A stretch of DNA of 50,637 bases, taken from assembly GCA_949480205.1 (NCBI GenBank), contig CASXXK010000005.1:1-50637 (forward strand). Reading direction: 5' to 3'. Within the stretch, counting starts at the first letter, position 1. Each line of letters opens with the position of its first letter. This document shows positions 7,427 to 13,234 of the stretch, one piece after another. The position numbers and the translations under genes were made by a program. Below the pieces are notes generated by a model. The model searched no databases, had not been told where the DNA came from, and saw only the letters and a list, made by a program, of their open reading frames with translations. The stretch is from an uncultured Candidatus Saccharibacteria bacterium. Lineage in GTDB: Bacteria > Patescibacteriota > Saccharimonadia > Saccharimonadales > Saccharimonadaceae.

Positions 7427-7453
7427 ATCCTCCGCTTTGGCGGAGGATTTTTT
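7427..7453. terminator. Bidirectional terminator between convergent genes
   Basis: ATCCTCCGC, loop TTTG, GCGGAGGAT, then TTTTT. It lies 3' of the two-membrane-segment gene on the plus strand and abuts the stop of the minus-strand ATPase gene at 7452. Confidence 0.85.
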
Positions 7454-10163
7454 AGCGCTTCACCTTAAATACCGCTTCATCAGGTTCTGTCTGGTCTGTC
7501 GTTTCTGCACTGCCATTCACAGGTTTTAGGACTTCAGTTTCGGCCTCATCTACCATTTCTGGCACACTTTCCGCCTTCTGCGCCGCCACTTCTGCGCGTC
7601 GCTTACGCCAATTATCCAAGAAGCTACCACCACTCGACTTAGTACTAACGTTATCCGCCCCAGATTTGCCTTCAGGGCCTTCTGACATCGCCGCAGCGGC
7701 CTTTTCTGCCCGCTCCGCAGTCTTCCAGCGCTCCTGGATCTCGTATTCCACCTCCGCCCGCGTACGACCGTATTTGGTTGCCGTATAAATCTTCATCGTC
7801 TCCATCAATTCTGGATTCGCCTCGCCCATCGGCGGCAATAATTTCATCGTAAAAGGCGCACTTGGGATGTTATACATCATCACCGTCGCAATCGCCTGGT
7901 AATTCCCTTGTTTGTGTAGGTCTTCCGCATTAAATACTGGCGCAAACGCTTTCTCCATTAATTCCGCATCAGTCACGCCAAGACGTCCCGACATAATCGT
8001 ACCCACGTTACCCAAGATTCCCTCGCGAATCTTATCCGTCAGCTGGGTCATAAATTGGTTTGCCAAGAACAAATTAAGCCGATATTTCCGCGCCTCACTC
8101 AAAATCGACTCAAAACTCTCAGTCGCAAAATTCTGAAACTCGTCCACAAACAGACAGAAGTCTTTTCGCTCATCCTCAGGAATATCCGCCCGGCTCATCG
8201 CTGCTTGTTGGAATTTCATCACCAAGATCATACCAAGCAATTGTGAGTTAATATCGCCCAAACGACCTTTTGACAAGTTCACCAAGAATATTTTCTTGCT
8301 ATCCATAATTTCGCGAATATTGAAACCGCTCTTGCGTTGCCCCAAAATATTTCGCATAATGGTGTTGCTAAGGAATGGCCCCCACTTGGACGAGAACCAA
8401 GTAATCACCTCGCCTGCATCATTGCTCTTTTGCGAAGCTGGAAACTCCTTGGTCCAATAATCATACACCGCTTTATCAGTCACGTACTGCAACTTTTCCT
8501 TCACGAATGCCGGATCAGTAAAACACTGCGGAATATCAATAAAAGTTGCACCATTAGGATCGCTCATCAGGAGTAGTGCCGCATTGCGAAACATATGCTG
8601 CCCTCTTGGCCCAAAGAAACCCTGATTATTTGGATCAAACAGGCTCTGCAACATGTTAATCCCCTCTTGCACAATGAAGTCTTTCTGATCGGCCGTAGTA
8701 AACTCAAACATGTTCATCCCAATCGGATGCTCAATATCTGCCGGATCAAAGTAAATAATATCGTCAATCCGGTTCTCCGGAACTTTTGAGAGCAAAAGTT
8801 CCACAGCATCACCATGTGGATCAATAAAGGCAAACCCTCGCCCCTCCACCATATCCTGATACGCTACATTAGTCAGCAAAACTGATTTACCCATACCAGT
8901 AGAACCAATCACATAAGTGTGGCGTCGCCGGTCATTTTCAGATAACCGAATTTCCTTTTGCACCCCACGAAACTCGTTCACACCCAAAAGTACACCATCA
9001 GTCACCAACTTCGCCGGTCCGTCCACTTGTTTGGTGGCCTGGCGCTCCACTTGCGAAGTCGGAATCGCGTTTTGCGCTGGCAAATGGAAAATCGATGCCA
9101 ATTCCACACTATTTAATATAGTGCGATCCGCGCTTTGTGGGAAAAGTCGGAAAATATAGTCTACTGTTAGTTTGCGCATGTCCTTCAACATGTCATACTG
9201 GAATCCATTAAAATTCTGCGAATCAAATTGCGCAAATGCTGCCACCACCCCGCCCAACATTGCTTCAGAACGCTCTTTAGTCTTGGAACTTGAAACGATA
9301 CGAATCAATGTCTCAAACCCTGGATATTTGGTCTTATTTTCGATTGCTGCAATTTGTTCCTGCTGTAAATTCGTCAACGGATCTTTTTCATACTTTTCGT
9401 GTTCATCTGGCGGTCGCCAGAACGCCTGTATAAAATCTTTAATCAAAAGCACAATCTCATTGGCTGCCCTTTTGCCCGCTTCGGCCACTTTTTTACCATT
9501 TTTTAAATTTTGTACCCATTCCTCAGACCGCTTAGTCCAGCCACCATCCGTTGGTCGTAGTAAAATTTGTACAGCAATTCCCTCACCTGCCTTGGTTACC
9601 GACATCGCGTTCAAAATTCCGAGACTTGCATCACGCTGACTATCTTCATAAGTACTAATCGGAAATACGAATTCTTTTTTCAGGGTCATCTCTCCACCCG
9701 CAATCTGATCAGTTGTCACTTCTTCAGAAAAAATACTATCTGGCTCAATTTCTTCCAACCGCGCTGATGGATATGCCGAAATTACCGCCTGCTTCACCGT
9801 CTCCACAATTACCGCCGGCACCACCGCATAATATTTAATCAAGCCTTCCGCTGCCACGATCTCAAATGCCATATGCCGCTGACCAAAAATTCGGCTTTTC
9901 AGACCCTTTGTCACCGTCGAAGCAATAATCGAATACATCACCTGCGCCTGACTCAAAGCCTCGTTAGTCACATCGCGTTCATCACGCCCATTACCCTGAA
10001 TGTCGTCCGTCGATGGTGGCAGATGAATCAACATTGGGATCATCTTGAGCCCACGCTCATAATTCTTGGCTCGTCGCTGCCGGTTAATCCGCCAGCTCCA
10101 AATCACGCCAACCAATACGCCCACCAATACCACTACAATAATATATATGACCCAAGTCGGCAT
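7452..10163 (-). CDS. TraG/VirD4/HerA-like conjugation-type ATPase
   Basis: A 903-aa membrane-anchored P-loop ATPase. An N-terminal membrane segment (about 3-22, VIYIIVVVLVGVLVGVIW) is followed by a region of about 400 residues. The ATPase core has Walker A GSTGMGKS (about 419-427) and IDPHGDAVELLL after it. Walker B/DExQ is CLFVDEFQNF (about 674), with ANQFMTQL as sensor-like region. Relatives are coupling ATPases of type IV secretion or conjugation systems that pump DNA or protein. The C-terminal 120 residues are charged and low complexity. It overlaps the preceding gene by TAATG, implying translational coupling. A role in DNA transfer or T4SS-like secretion is inferred; a VirB2-like pilin lies 24 kb away. 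Confidence 0.85.
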   Translation of the reverse strand: MPTWVIYIIVVVLVGVLVGVIWSWRINRQRRAKNYERGLKMIPMLIHLPPSTDDIQGNGRDERDVTNEALSQAQVMYSIIASTVTKGLKSRIFGQRHMAFEIVAAEGLIKYYAVVPAVIVETVKQAVISAYPSARLEEIEPDSIFSEEVTTDQIAGGEMTLKKEFVFPISTYEDSQRDASLGILNAMSVTKAGEGIAVQILLRPTDGGWTKRSEEWVQNLKNGKKVAEAGKRAANEIVLLIKDFIQAFWRPPDEHEKYEKDPLTNLQQEQIAAIENKTKYPGFETLIRIVSSSKTKERSEAMLGGVVAAFAQFDSQNFNGFQYDMLKDMRKLTVDYIFRLFPQSADRTILNSVELASIFHLPAQNAIPTSQVERQATKQVDGPAKLVTDGVLLGVNEFRGVQKEIRLSENDRRRHTYVIGSTGMGKSVLLTNVAYQDMVEGRGFAFIDPHGDAVELLLSKVPENRIDDIIYFDPADIEHPIGMNMFEFTTADQKDFIVQEGINMLQSLFDPNNQGFFGPRGQHMFRNAALLLMSDPNGATFIDIPQCFTDPAFVKEKLQYVTDKAVYDYWTKEFPASQKSNDAGEVITWFSSKWGPFLSNTIMRNILGQRKSGFNIREIMDSKKIFLVNLSKGRLGDINSQLLGMILVMKFQQAAMSRADIPEDERKDFCLFVDEFQNFATESFESILSEARKYRLNLFLANQFMTQLTDKIREGILGNVGTIMSGRLGVTDAELMEKAFAPVFNAEDLHKQGNYQAIATVMMYNIPSAPFTMKLLPPMGEANPELMETMKIYTATKYGRTRAEVEYEIQERWKTAERAEKAAAAMSEGPEGKSGADNVSTKSSGGSFLDNWRKRRAEVAAQKAESVPEMVDEAETEVLKPVNGSAETTDQTEPDEAVFKVKR

Positions 10164-10669
10164 TAACCATTCCCCCTACCAATTGGATGCGGATCTTCCA
10201 TACTATTCAAGGCTTCGTTACCTAGTTTACGATATGCCCGCACCACTTCCAGCGGAGAGAAATTCTTTTTACGCGTAATTTCTTCAACTTCTTTCATCGC
10301 TGCCTGCGCAATTGCCACCTCTCCGCGACGAGCAATCCTAGCCTCAAAATCCCGCTTTGGATTAATTTCGTTCTGAAAGTTCTCCTCCTCCCGTGCCAAA
10401 CGCTCATCCACCTGTAACGGCGTTTCTACACCCACAAACTCCTCGGGGCGTTCCAGTTCTGCCTGATCTCGTGCAATTTCTTGCGCCGCCTCTTGACTTC
10501 CAGTTAACACTCGCCAACCAAGCTGTTCTGCACGCGCGCGTGCAGAAATAACGGGTGTTTGTTCCGGAGTCGTTTGCATCACTATACCAAAATCCTGGCC
10601 CTCTGCCCCAGCAGCCATACCCAAATTTGTCTCCTTCACCTGGAATTTTTGCACACGACCATTATCCAT
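10163..10669 (-). CDS. Unknown soluble protein, operon partner of the conjugation-type ATPase
   Basis: A 168-aa protein with no signal or membrane segment, rich in Glu, Arg and Ala and predicted to be largely helical. I recognise no family. Its stop overlaps the start of the ATPase gene (TAATG), so the two should be co-translated and may act together. The -10 element TAAAAT lies 6 nt before the ATG, so the operon mRNA is predicted to be leaderless. Confidence 0.7.
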   Translation of the reverse strand: MDNGRVQKFQVKETNLGMAAGAEGQDFGIVMQTTPEQTPVISARARAEQLGWRVLTGSQEAAQEIARDQAELERPEEFVGVETPLQVDERLAREEENFQNEINPKRDFEARIARRGEVAIAQAAMKEVEEITRKKNFSPLEVVRAYRKLGNEALNSMEDPHPIGRGNG

Positions 10670-10727
10670 AAGCTTATTTTACCATATCTAGCCTGTTTTG
10701 TTCACAAATTTTAATCATAAATTCTAT

Positions 10728-11075
10728 CTAAGCTAAACGCTTGCTCACCAAAAAACACCCTAACAGTACAAATAGCACCGTTAAGGTAACCGTCAAAAGG
10801 CTAATTGACCCGAGTGACTGTGCTAGCATTAGCATAATCGGGCCAAAAGCGATTACTACGCCATAGAGGTAGCCTTTGCGCCCCATAGGTTTTCCCATCA
10901 GTTTCGCAAAGATTTTTACAATCCCCACCGCTAAGCCAAACATCAAAACATAAAACGTTGTAAAAAATACCAAAACACCGAGTGGACCAATTCCGGTAGG
11001 AGTCGTGAAATTCAACATCGTAAGCAAAATTACTGCCGCAAGCAAACTAAGTACTGGAATTAAACGTTTTGACAT
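10728..11075 (-). CDS. Small polytopic membrane protein, unknown function
   Basis: A 115-aa protein with four likely membrane segments: about 4-22, 32-55, 68-85 and 90-110. A short basic loop (KLMGKPMGRKGY) lies between segments two and three. No family was recognised. The promoter TGATATAAT ends 6 nt before the ATG, so the transcript should be leaderless. It is separated from the following minus-strand gene by about 58 bp. Confidence 0.7.
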   Translation of the reverse strand: MSKRLIPVLSLLAAVILLTMLNFTTPTGIGPLGVLVFFTTFYVLMFGLAVGIVKIFAKLMGKPMGRKGYLYGVVIAFGPIMLMLAQSLGSISLLTVTLTVLFVLLGCFLVSKRLA

Positions 11076-11104
11076 AAGCTTATTATATCACAGAATTCCC
11101 CTTT

Positions 11105-11856
11105 TCTGTAAACCCCCAACACCTCTAAAGATAAGAAAAAACAAGGTGAGAATGGGTGAGTTATCTGGCGAAAAACACATTGTTACTTTGGGCCACAACT
11201 CGTTCCCATTCTCTTATTTGACCGCTCCACTAGTAGTGGGGCATAGTCCTAATTGGCTTATACTTCTGTTCTATTTTGTGTCAAGGTGCAAACAGAAAAT
11301 ATTTACCAACGCGCTTGCAAGTGTTCCCTCGAAATTCCCTGTGCATTTTATCAGTCTTTGCATTACTATGACATGCTCCTACCTTAGATGCTGAAGGCAT
11401 TTCTCACGGGCGGCCAGGTGATTATTCAAGAAAGTTACAGCGTAAAATCGGCTCGTCAAAGATTATCGGAATACCCCTAGGAGCCTCAAGGCTACCCAAA
11501 CGGTAGTCTTTCGGTTCCATCGGGGCGATCGTGAGTGATAATCCCTGGCAAGTCAGCTACCAGAAGCGTTCCCGAAGGACGGCTCTGAAACTGGCTACCA
11601 TTCCCGCAGATTTGTACGGTAGGATGGTGACGATCACCCCAGTGAAGTCAACGGGGTTTGACCCATCTCCTTCCCAAAGGTTACTTGCTGTTCCCTTTCT
11701 GAGAACTCACACATGGTGATTCCGCAAGCTTTAGGTAATTCCTAAGAGTGTAATTTATGGCTAGAAATTACCTTTTCGCCTGTGGAATTCGCTTGCTGCT
11801 CTCAATCTTATGTTAATTTGCTTTTTGTGATTCGTTTTTGTGTTCTGAATTGAACT
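11105..11856 (-). ncRNA. Large unidentified structured RNA (~0.75 kb)
   Basis: A consensus-like promoter on the minus strand (TTGAAA 11886-11891, 17-bp spacer, TGC-TATGAT 11863-11868) starts transcription near 11856. The next 750 nt contain no minus-strand ORF of 60 codons but many stems. Examples are GACTACC-GTTT-GGGTAGCC, CCCC-N12-GGGG, and a closing 3' helix pairing GAGAATGGG plus GAGTT with AACTC plus CCCATTCTC, followed by CACCTTGTTTTTTC as terminator. It is GC-richer than the intergenic DNA around it. It is not tmRNA, RNase P or rRNA, which are located elsewhere or do not match. GOLLD, ROOL or OLE-type giant RNAs are possible but I could not match it to one. Confidence 0.6.
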
Positions 11857-11908
11857 GTCTTCATCATAGCACGCTTATGCTAAGTTTTCAATAGTTTTTA
11901 CCCAAAAT

Positions 11909-11987
11909 ATTGTTGTAATTATCACAACATACAGTATTTTACCCCTGTTATATCCCCCGATTTTATTGTTGTAATCTTTACAACAAT
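11909..11987. promoter_or_regulatory. Pair of palindromes upstream of the large RNA promoter
   Basis: Two related palindromes, 11909-11930 (ATTGTTGTAA...CACAACAT) and 11965-11987 (ATTGTTGTA, TCT-centred, TACAACAAT), start about 18 and 74 bp upstream of the -35 element of the large RNA. They may be operator sites for a regulator of that RNA. The second could also act as a transcription-terminating hairpin. Confidence 0.4.
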
Positions 11988-12059
11988 AACGTTAAGAGCT
12001 TCCTATTTTGCAGTTTGATCATGCTTGTGTTTGCTAATTTCTGACAAATCATGATAGGC

Positions 12060-12335
12060 TGTGGTCAGGGTAAACAAAGTCCCCAGGCACATTGACTTCG
12101 CCAGCGCGGTGGGAAAGGAGGGGGTATGGTCAGACTATTCTTACGAATTCGTCTTTTATGCGCCATTGCAGCAATGTATGTCCGCACAAAAATTACTTCA
12201 GGCAAGCGCCTGAAGTAAACCAAAACTATAATTCTATCCTAGCAAGTTTTTACTAAAATGTCTATACTTTGTTTGCCCGATCTTTACATACCCCCTTACC
12301 TGCTGAGACCATACTATTTAGTATGGTCTCAGTTC
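12060..12335. ncRNA. Candidate pseudoknotted RNA
   Basis: No ORF fits here. Two long-range complementarities cross each other. GGGTAAACAAAGT (about 12068-12081) pairs with ACTTTGTTTGCCC (about 12266-12279) with one mismatch. GGGGGTATG (about 12121-12130) pairs with CATACCCCC (about 12288-12297). Local hairpins lie at 12198-12219 (ACTTCAGG...CCTGAAGT) and 12301-12331 (CTGAGACCATACTATTTAG and its complement). The latter is followed by TTCTATAAT and could end a plus-strand RNA. I found no convincing promoter on either strand, so strand and ends are uncertain. Confidence 0.4.
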
Positions 12336-12350
12336 TATAATAGTTAATTC

Positions 12351-12369
12351 CCTGGCGGAAGCGAGAGGA
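12351..12369. repeat. Duplicate of the tRNA-Ser 3' end (19 bp)
   Basis: CCTGGCGGAAGCGAGAGGA is identical to 12485-12503, the 3' acceptor/T-arm end of tRNA-Ser, 134 bp away. Duplicated tRNA 3' ends commonly mark integration sites of mobile DNA; this could equally be the remnant of a second tRNA-Ser. The intervening DNA also contains a T-arm-like string (GAGGTTCAAATCC, near 12415) on the plus strand. Confidence 0.6.
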
Positions 12370-12445
12370 AGGCTTCACTCCGTTCCGCATCTCGCTACGC
12401 TCGATAACGAACCTCGAGGTTCAAATCCTTACTTTTCTTACAGAA

Positions 12446-12484
12446 AAGTAAAATCACCATACCTCTGGCATGATGATTTTACTT
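12446..12484 (-). terminator. Terminator downstream of tRNA-Ser
   Basis: A hairpin with arms AAGTAAAATCATC and GTGATTTTACTT on the minus strand, followed by TTTTCTG, directly after the tRNA-Ser CCA end. Confidence 0.75.
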
Positions 12485-12486
12485 CC

Positions 12487-12574
12487 TGGCGGAAGCGAGA
12501 GGATTCGAACCTCCGAGACATTGCTGCCCACACGATTTCGAGTCGTGCGCCTTCAACCACTCGGCCACGCTTCC
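12487..12574 (-). tRNA. tRNA-Ser (anticodon CGA)
   Basis: The acceptor GGAAGCG pairs with CGCTTCC, followed by G and an encoded CCA. The anticodon stem-loop CACGA-CTCGAAA-TCGTG gives CGA, reading UCG. A long variable arm (about GGGCAGCAATGTC) marks a class II tRNA, and the T-arm is GGAGGTTCGAATCCTC. The promoter element TGCTATAAT lies about 7 nt upstream. The 3' end is duplicated at 12351-12369. Confidence 0.95.
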
Positions 12575-12604
12575 ACTGTACATTATAGCATATTTCATTA
12601 CAAA

Positions 12605-12739
12605 AGAGAAAGACCGGCAACTGCGAGGAAAACCGGTCTTTCGTAGAGTGTGGAGTTATTTTGGCTATTTTTAAGTCCTAATCGTTAAGGACTGAAGTTT
12701 TTATTTTTGGTTCCTGAGTAATATTTTTATTCAAGAACT
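12605..12739 (-). ncRNA. Candidate three-hairpin small RNA
   Basis: An excellent promoter on the minus strand (TTGACT 12769-12774, 17-bp spacer, TATAAT 12746-12751) predicts a start near 12739. The 135-nt RNA would form GTTCTTGA...TCAGGAAC, then AGTCCT...AGGACT, then a terminator hairpin AAAGACCGG...CCGGTCTTT (12609-12641) followed by CTCTTTTG. No ORF is visible. It lies between tmRNA and tRNA-Ser. It does not look like 6S or SRP RNA to me. Confidence 0.55.
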
Positions 12740-12846
12740 GTCTCTATTATATGGCCAATAAATGCTTAAGTCAATAGGATTTTGTACAATTTTTTTATAA
12801 TTTTTAGTGAAGTTTTCCACAGGCAAACCGTTGTATTTTCGACCAC

Positions 12847-12870
12847 AAAAAAGACTCTAACGAGTCTTCA
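12847..12870 (-). terminator. Terminator of the tmRNA gene
   Basis: AAGACTC, short loop, GAGTCTT, then TTTTTT on the minus strand, about 12 nt past the encoded CCA of tmRNA. Confidence 0.8.
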
Positions 12871-12881
12871 TCTTTGCGTTT

Positions 12882-13234
12882 TGGTGGAGCTGCCGGATAC
12901 TGCCTCCGGGTCCGAAAAATCTTCATGATATCATTCTACATGCTTAGTTACTTGTTTCGTCGGCAAATTCCCATAGCTGCAAGTAACAAAACTATAAGTG
13001 CCCTGATCTACATTGTCGGACTTAGGGTGATCACTCCCCTCGCCTTATTACCGTAATCTAATAATCCGCAGTCTACGGAAACTCGACTTTGGACCAGCTT
13101 AAATTAAATCTTAAGCAAATGCAGGTGCGTAAAGCACGTGCTTAGTCGTATTTTTCTGACTTATTTAGATACTTACGTGTATTATTCGACATGCCTGATA
13201 TCTGTTAATAATTCGTCTAAGCTTTGTCAGCCCC
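12882..13234 (-). ncRNA. ssrA: tmRNA
   Basis: Rescues stalled ribosomes and tags the nascent chain for proteolysis. The 5' end GGGGCTG pairs with CAGCTCC before the encoded ACCA. GGCATGTCGA near the 5' side matches the conserved GCATGCCGAGG region of bacterial tmRNA. A tag frame ends in NTTKHVLYAPAFA then TAA; its resume codon is uncertain. The promoter is TTGTGA, 17-bp spacer, TATACT (13245-13273). Oddly, the T-arm CCGGA-GGCAGTA-TCCGG has a 7-nt loop without the usual TTCRANY, and the tRNA-like D region reads CTTAGACGAA rather than TTCGACGG. Confidence 0.85.

Follow-up and report, generated by a model that had tools for sequence, protein, structure and literature searches.

The window analysed here, a stretch of 50,637 nucleotides, belongs to a Saccharibacteria genome of 855 kb in 28 contigs, and the close matches that carry a name are 'Candidatus Saccharibacteria' MAGs from gut and rumen. 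Its minus strand carries a conserved structured RNA of about 720 nt, from about 11856 to about 11136, as judged from the sequence and from relatives. The RNA is preceded by a TTGAAA-17-TATGAT promoter (11891-11863, minus strand) with a TG before the -10 element. This promoter lies just beyond the segment 11105-11856 given in the original prediction. The extended -10 is kept in relatives and was found at 120 of 135 related loci, against 17 expected. It proved the right test here; a loose sigma-70 rule (9/12) applied across the genus was uninformative (36 matches against 27 expected). The pair of palindromes predicted upstream is real: the distal operator-like site, TGTTGTAA-N-TTACAACA (11964-11985), and the proximal one (11908-11929) were located by pattern search as the only two matches to TTGTNRNNATTACAACA in 50.6 kb, where 0.05 would be expected. 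An upstream palindrome of this type occurs at 121 of 135 related loci compared with 37 expected.

The minus strand is free of ORFs of at least 50 aa across 11105-11856, as had been predicted, and the ORFs of 129 and 62 aa on the plus strand were judged spurious. The folding energy of the minus strand is -236.6 kcal/mol against -198.7 kcal/mol for shuffled sequences (z -6.65, from only 20 shuffles), whereas the plus strand folds less distinctively (z -2.3). A plus-strand transcript was rejected because the helices, promoter, terminators and neighbouring genes all indicate the minus strand, and a protein-coding reading was rejected by covariation. The earlier proposal of a free RNA with its own promoter is supported as to the structured RNA and its promoter, and can be completed with the strand, which it did not give.

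The predicted transcript begins with an A-rich segment (11797-11857), followed by domain I (11713-11796; alignment A2), in which helix P1 (11788-11778 with 11729-11719) encloses hairpin P2 (11772-11762 with 11745-11734); these helices were verified in the window copy. The P2 loop, GCCAUAAAUUACA (11761-11749), is near-invariant among aligned relatives. Two loci, L029 and L030, carry an extra hairpin of about 45 nt within this otherwise invariant loop. A clade-specific structured insert of about 390 nt (11323-11712), delimited by length comparison with relatives, separates domain I from domain II (11133-11322; alignment A1), which matches R1, a covariance model of domain II, with an E-value of 3.4e-35. 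Domain II contains P3 (11310-11306/11256-11252), P3b (11295-11291/11270-11266), the P4 hairpin with GAGCGGUC (11249-11220) and the terminal hairpin P5 (11213-11148). The latter is the long terminal helix of the original prediction, GAGAAUGGG...CCCAUUCUC, and is followed by ACCTTG and a T6 run (11141-11136), a possible termination point. For most helices, a base-by-base check showed that they form in the window copy.

Covariation among relatives is strong. Two-sided changes that preserve pairing were found in 21 of 29 domain II pairs, a count equalled in none of 500 shuffles, and sliding the partners by one column lowered the share of paired cells from 96.5% to about 37%. Covariation is present in two independent alignments, one of domain II from the genus and one of a compact version of the RNA from other families.

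In a sub-clade of the genus, a short Lys-rich ORF ends right before P1. It occurs at 95 of 136 loci compared with 15 expected in shuffles, a count made on related, not independent, loci (L004-L060 and L104-L219). The encoded peptides contain 41% Lys and end in Pro, Thr or Lys; MKRKKPKARNKP, MKVKTKP and MKYK are examples. The ORF is not clearly present in the window copy, where no AUG version is evident. It could be a leader peptide or a device for ribosome recruitment. At seven sister-genus loci (L062, L063, L116, L125, L142, L215 and L218), an apparently conserved GTG-TAA/TAG start-stop, read by eye, takes the place of the short ORF just before P1, behind an SD-like stretch rich in purines.

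The giant size proposed for the RNA holds for the clade of the window, but most relatives in the genus are about 330 nt long and copies in other families about 150-250 nt. In most members of the genus, the stretch between the domains does not exceed about 130 nt, giving the RNA of about 330 nt, whereas the window and a few close relatives contain a partly conserved and structured insert of 300-480 nt, measured at 308-478 nt in the window, L002 and L003. The giant size has therefore come about locally, by elaboration of a smaller RNA. The predicted run of T beyond the terminal helix is present; it too is local to this clade and is not conserved in relatives.

Sequence search located the RNA in 33 of 36 genomes of the genus. 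Matches to R1 were obtained in 41 of 43 genus genomes and in all eight sampled genomes of the sister genus; they are weak in other genera of the family, and nearly all lie directly upstream of the gene for a membrane protein, here called p115. One genome that was scored negative at first, G227, carries a divergent copy that shares the P2 loop, as seen by eye. Reading of the DNA upstream of the p115 gene in other families of Saccharimonadales revealed a compact version of about 150-250 nt with its own TTGACA promoter (at least 10/12 at 13 of 20 loci, against 1.7 expected) and often an intrinsic terminator. It contains the hairpin CGCUC...GAGCGGUCAGUCA and, at its end, the hairpin GGACGGUAAGCGCUA...GAGCGGAUUUACCGUCC, usually with an A-rich hairpin on the 5' side; the terminal hairpin AAGCGCU/AGCGGAUUU is conserved across the order. 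A second covariance model, R2, was built from 19 compact copies and is supported by covariation. It has matches in 158 of the 295 genomes from the order; 157 of these genomes do not belong to the family of the window, and almost all have a single copy. When applied to 380 genomes from the whole phylum, R2 recovered the same order and one genome of another order in the class, G407; two further marginal, partial matches were treated as noise. G407 has the full set of promoter, RNA, terminator and p115 homologue, and its copy is a probable instance of the RNA from a different order.

In the window, the gene immediately downstream of the RNA and on the same strand encodes p115, a protein of 115 aa with four predicted transmembrane helices (10728-11075). 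It is followed by p168 (10163-10669, minus strand), a low-complexity and probably disordered protein with a positional counterpart in all genomes checked, and by a VirD4/TraG-type coupling ATPase (T4CP) of 903 aa (7452-10163, minus strand; PF02534, PF12696). Homologues of p115, of about 115-130 aa, are encoded by almost all genomes of the family and by many others. All 44 genomes with both matches have p115 adjoining the RNA, co-oriented and immediately downstream, with gaps of 48-321 nt between the RNA core and p115. Six more RNA loci have a p115-like ORF that is too divergent for the profile. All 20 genomes checked for the VirD4-type ATPase keep it downstream of p115. In G407, pheST (the phenylalanyl-tRNA synthetase genes) lies between p115 and the ATPase, and the RNA is still beside p115. 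G208 and G252, two genomes of the same genus that are both 99% complete, are without the RNA, p115 and the ATPase orthologue. Several genomes also contain a second VirD4-type ATPase paralogue, about 37% identical, which persists where the p115-linked copy is lost; it was located at G208:C3:235685-237928, G252:C6:188249-190444 and G227:C3:106059-108458.

The AlphaFold model of p115 consists of four helices (pLDDT 83, pTM 0.70). Comparison with Pfam, NCBIfam, PDB sequences and PDB folds found no relation. Lys and Arg residues at the N-terminus, in the middle loop and at the C-terminus would give p115 a positively charged inner face, as predicted from its sequence, although such faces are common.

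An extended -10 element of p115, TGTGATATAAT, is located 6 nt before its ATG (11082-11092, minus strand), and a -10 box 6-11 nt before the ATG is found at 78 of 80 loci of the family. Most family genomes (L001-L083) have a TGnTATAAT box 6 nt before the ATG. From these sequences, p115 mRNA would be expected to be leaderless in the family and transcribed from its own promoter. The promoter signal is weak in other families (9 loci compared with 5.1 expected). There, an intrinsic terminator separates the RNA from p115 at 7 of 13 loci, against 0.4 expected. Within the family of the window, no terminator is evident between the RNA and p115, and read-through is therefore possible. Taken together, the terminators outside the family and the p115 -10 element inside it favour a stand-alone RNA over a 5' UTR.

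The RNA had been placed in an island with tRNA-Ser and tmRNA. Both genes are there, with tRNA-Ser confirmed at 12574-12487 and tmRNA at 13234-12882 by a covariance-model match, but the travelling partner of the RNA is the membrane-protein gene and not the island. The tmRNA lies upstream of the RNA across the genus and was not seen within the roughly 1 kb searched in other families. The linked pair is therefore the RNA and p115. RNase P RNA was found further away by a covariance-model match (16976-16633).

The DNA between the RNA and tRNA-Ser has features of its own. The 3' end of tRNA-Ser is directly repeated over 26 nt (88%), at 12344-12369 and 12478-12503; the outer copy stands in a partial tRNA-like stretch, and the arrangement resembles an attachment-site duplication or integration scar. 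Perfect hairpins of 14 bp (12303-12332) and 11 bp (12193-12218) lie between the RNA promoter and tRNA-Ser. The second of these makes a good minus-strand terminator and probably belongs to tRNA-Ser or to a small unannotated transcript.

No Rfam 15 family matches the RNA, including OLE, GOLLD, ROOL and HEARO, against which the original prediction had suggested a search. At E-values up to 10, the region 10650-12900 returned only tRNA and sub-threshold noise, and permissive searches of the window and 28 related loci returned nothing except tRNA, tmRNA, RNase P and noise. The OLE model gave no match at its gathering threshold, at E-values up to 10 in 10650-12900 or up to 1 in relatives. The known giant RNAs were rejected because no Rfam match appeared at permissive thresholds; GOLLD, ROOL and HEARO have no covariance-model match in the window or in relatives. 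Likewise, no match to a decayed rRNA or intron, named earlier as a possible refutation, was found, and the strong covariation counters another refutation named there, a lack of covariation. Identity with tmRNA or RNase P RNA was rejected, as both are located elsewhere in the window. For 6S RNA (RF00013), the best match in the same genome has an E-value of 4.3 and lies on another contig, and this identity was rejected. The only notable RF00013 match in 20 relatives, in G037 (E 2.7e-5, 32 bits, below the cut-off), is 4.3 kb from the RNA; this stretch, G037:C51:16563-16716 (L242), is possibly a divergent Saccharibacteria 6S RNA. SRP RNA was rejected too: RF00169 has a match in 0 of 20 relatives and matches 11 of 14 control genomes. 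PF02978, the M domain of Ffh, was found in none of 8 relatives compared with 14 of 14 controls, and the Saccharibacteria genomes examined, this one and its relatives, seem to be without SRP. A missing SRP has been reported for Parcubacteria and many other CPR bacteria (PMC4508563, PMC8080830).

A 24-base signature diagnostic for the genus had no match in the viral contigs scanned. The searched literature contains no description of the RNA, including one TM7x RNA-seq paper that does not mention noncoding RNA, and neither Rfam 15 nor this literature holds a Saccharibacteria-specific noncoding RNA. The RNA is almost certainly real and a member of a new family that is Saccharibacteria-wide and restricted to the class. 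It falls outside every described family tested, and the window copy is the founding window member of this apparently new family.

For the function of this RNA, we tentatively favour a stand-alone RNA acting together with p115 at the membrane, by analogy with OLE and OapA. OapA has four predicted transmembrane helices, and its gene is the commonest immediate downstream neighbour of ole; it binds OLE RNA and is required for the membrane localisation of OLE (PMC12265935). The two systems share a structured RNA whose next gene downstream encodes a small protein with four predicted TM helices. They also share confinement to one bacterial lineage, Bacillota in the case of OLE, and a size that varies through added domains. 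OLE differs in that no sequence or structure match was obtained (Rfam) and in its size, about 600 nt compared with about 150-350 nt for most members here; OapA and the 115-aa p115 are unrelated by any profile, sequence or fold, and the operon described here goes on to a VirD4-type ATPase. The parallel is one of arrangement, without homology, and the partnership of the RNA with p115 is a putative one.

According to this favoured explanation, the RNA would be made as a separate unit from its own promoter under the palindromic operator, as suggested by the promoters and terminators. It would be functionally coupled to p115, often the head of the VirD4-type ATPase operon, judging from adjacency and co-loss. 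It may fold into a scaffold whose conserved hairpins bind p115 on its positively charged cytoplasmic side; the candidates are the P2 loop in the genus and near relatives and the AAGCGCU/AGCGGAUUU terminal hairpin throughout the order. The resulting membrane-attached RNP, as with OLE and OapA, might act on the neighbouring translocase ATPase or on the envelope. The coupling is supported by the RNA staying by p115 in G407 and by the joint absence in G208 and G252. It has to be weighed that a conserved place upstream of the operon is equally expected of a cis-acting leader, that one deletion would take the whole locus whatever the RNA does, and that inner-membrane proteins commonly have positive charge on their cytoplasmic side.

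A cis-acting leader, the chief alternative although rather unlikely, would sense a ligand, a protein or the translation state and attenuate read-through into the p115-ATPase operon, and where the Lys-rich short ORF occurs in the genus it would serve as the leader peptide. The RNA is indeed always immediately upstream of the same operon in the same orientation and is lost together with it. Like riboswitch and attenuator leaders, it is a conserved fold before a conserved gene with an intrinsic terminator in between in many families, and the Lys-rich ORF ending just before P1 far exceeds expectation. However, the -10 element directly before the p115 ATG suggests that much of the mRNA should be leaderless in the family, the spacing between RNA core and p115 varies from 48 to 321 nt, and the terminators differ in sequence among loci and are missing from the family whose RNA is largest. 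Only part of one genus has the short ORF.

Alternatively, the RNA could act in trans on its own, as a regulatory or housekeeping RNA (6S-like, protein-sequestering or an sRNA) that is placed here incidentally, which we consider improbable. Its near-universal, single-copy occurrence and comparable size recall 6S and SRP (4.5S) RNA, and the consensus TTGACA promoter and terminators in other families, as well as the lack of a standard 6S RNA above the Rfam cut-off in relatives, agree with such a role. Against this, it matches neither covariance model and has another architecture, with no 6S-like rod and central bubble, and G037 has a weak separate 6S candidate. Moreover, the RNA stays by p115 where the operon is broken in G407, and both are lost in two genus genomes. 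It is hardly credible that the RNA is one of the known large RNAs, stems from a mobile element or is a decayed rRNA or intron: the window copy, with its clade-specific structured insert, has the large, ornate and unannotated look of GOLLD, ROOL and HEARO, but it has no Rfam match even at E-values up to 10 besides tRNA and sub-threshold noise, no prophage or HNH gene stands beside it, its diagnostic 24-base pattern is absent from the viral contigs, and it is chromosomal, small in most relatives and vertically inherited at one locus throughout the order.

A bolder form of the favoured explanation is highly doubtful: an ancient RNA-p115 membrane ribonucleoprotein with a role in membrane targeting or for a VirD4-type translocase, in hosts that seem to lack SRP RNA and Ffh. 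It would be the second natural system of RNA and membrane, without relation to OLE. As an independent case of an RNA with a four-TM protein, the pair of RNA and p115 would bear on the role of OLE-like RNPs. If an RNA that is near-universal and single-copy is coupled to a membrane protein in these ultrasmall epibionts, a basic part of their biology would have been overlooked.
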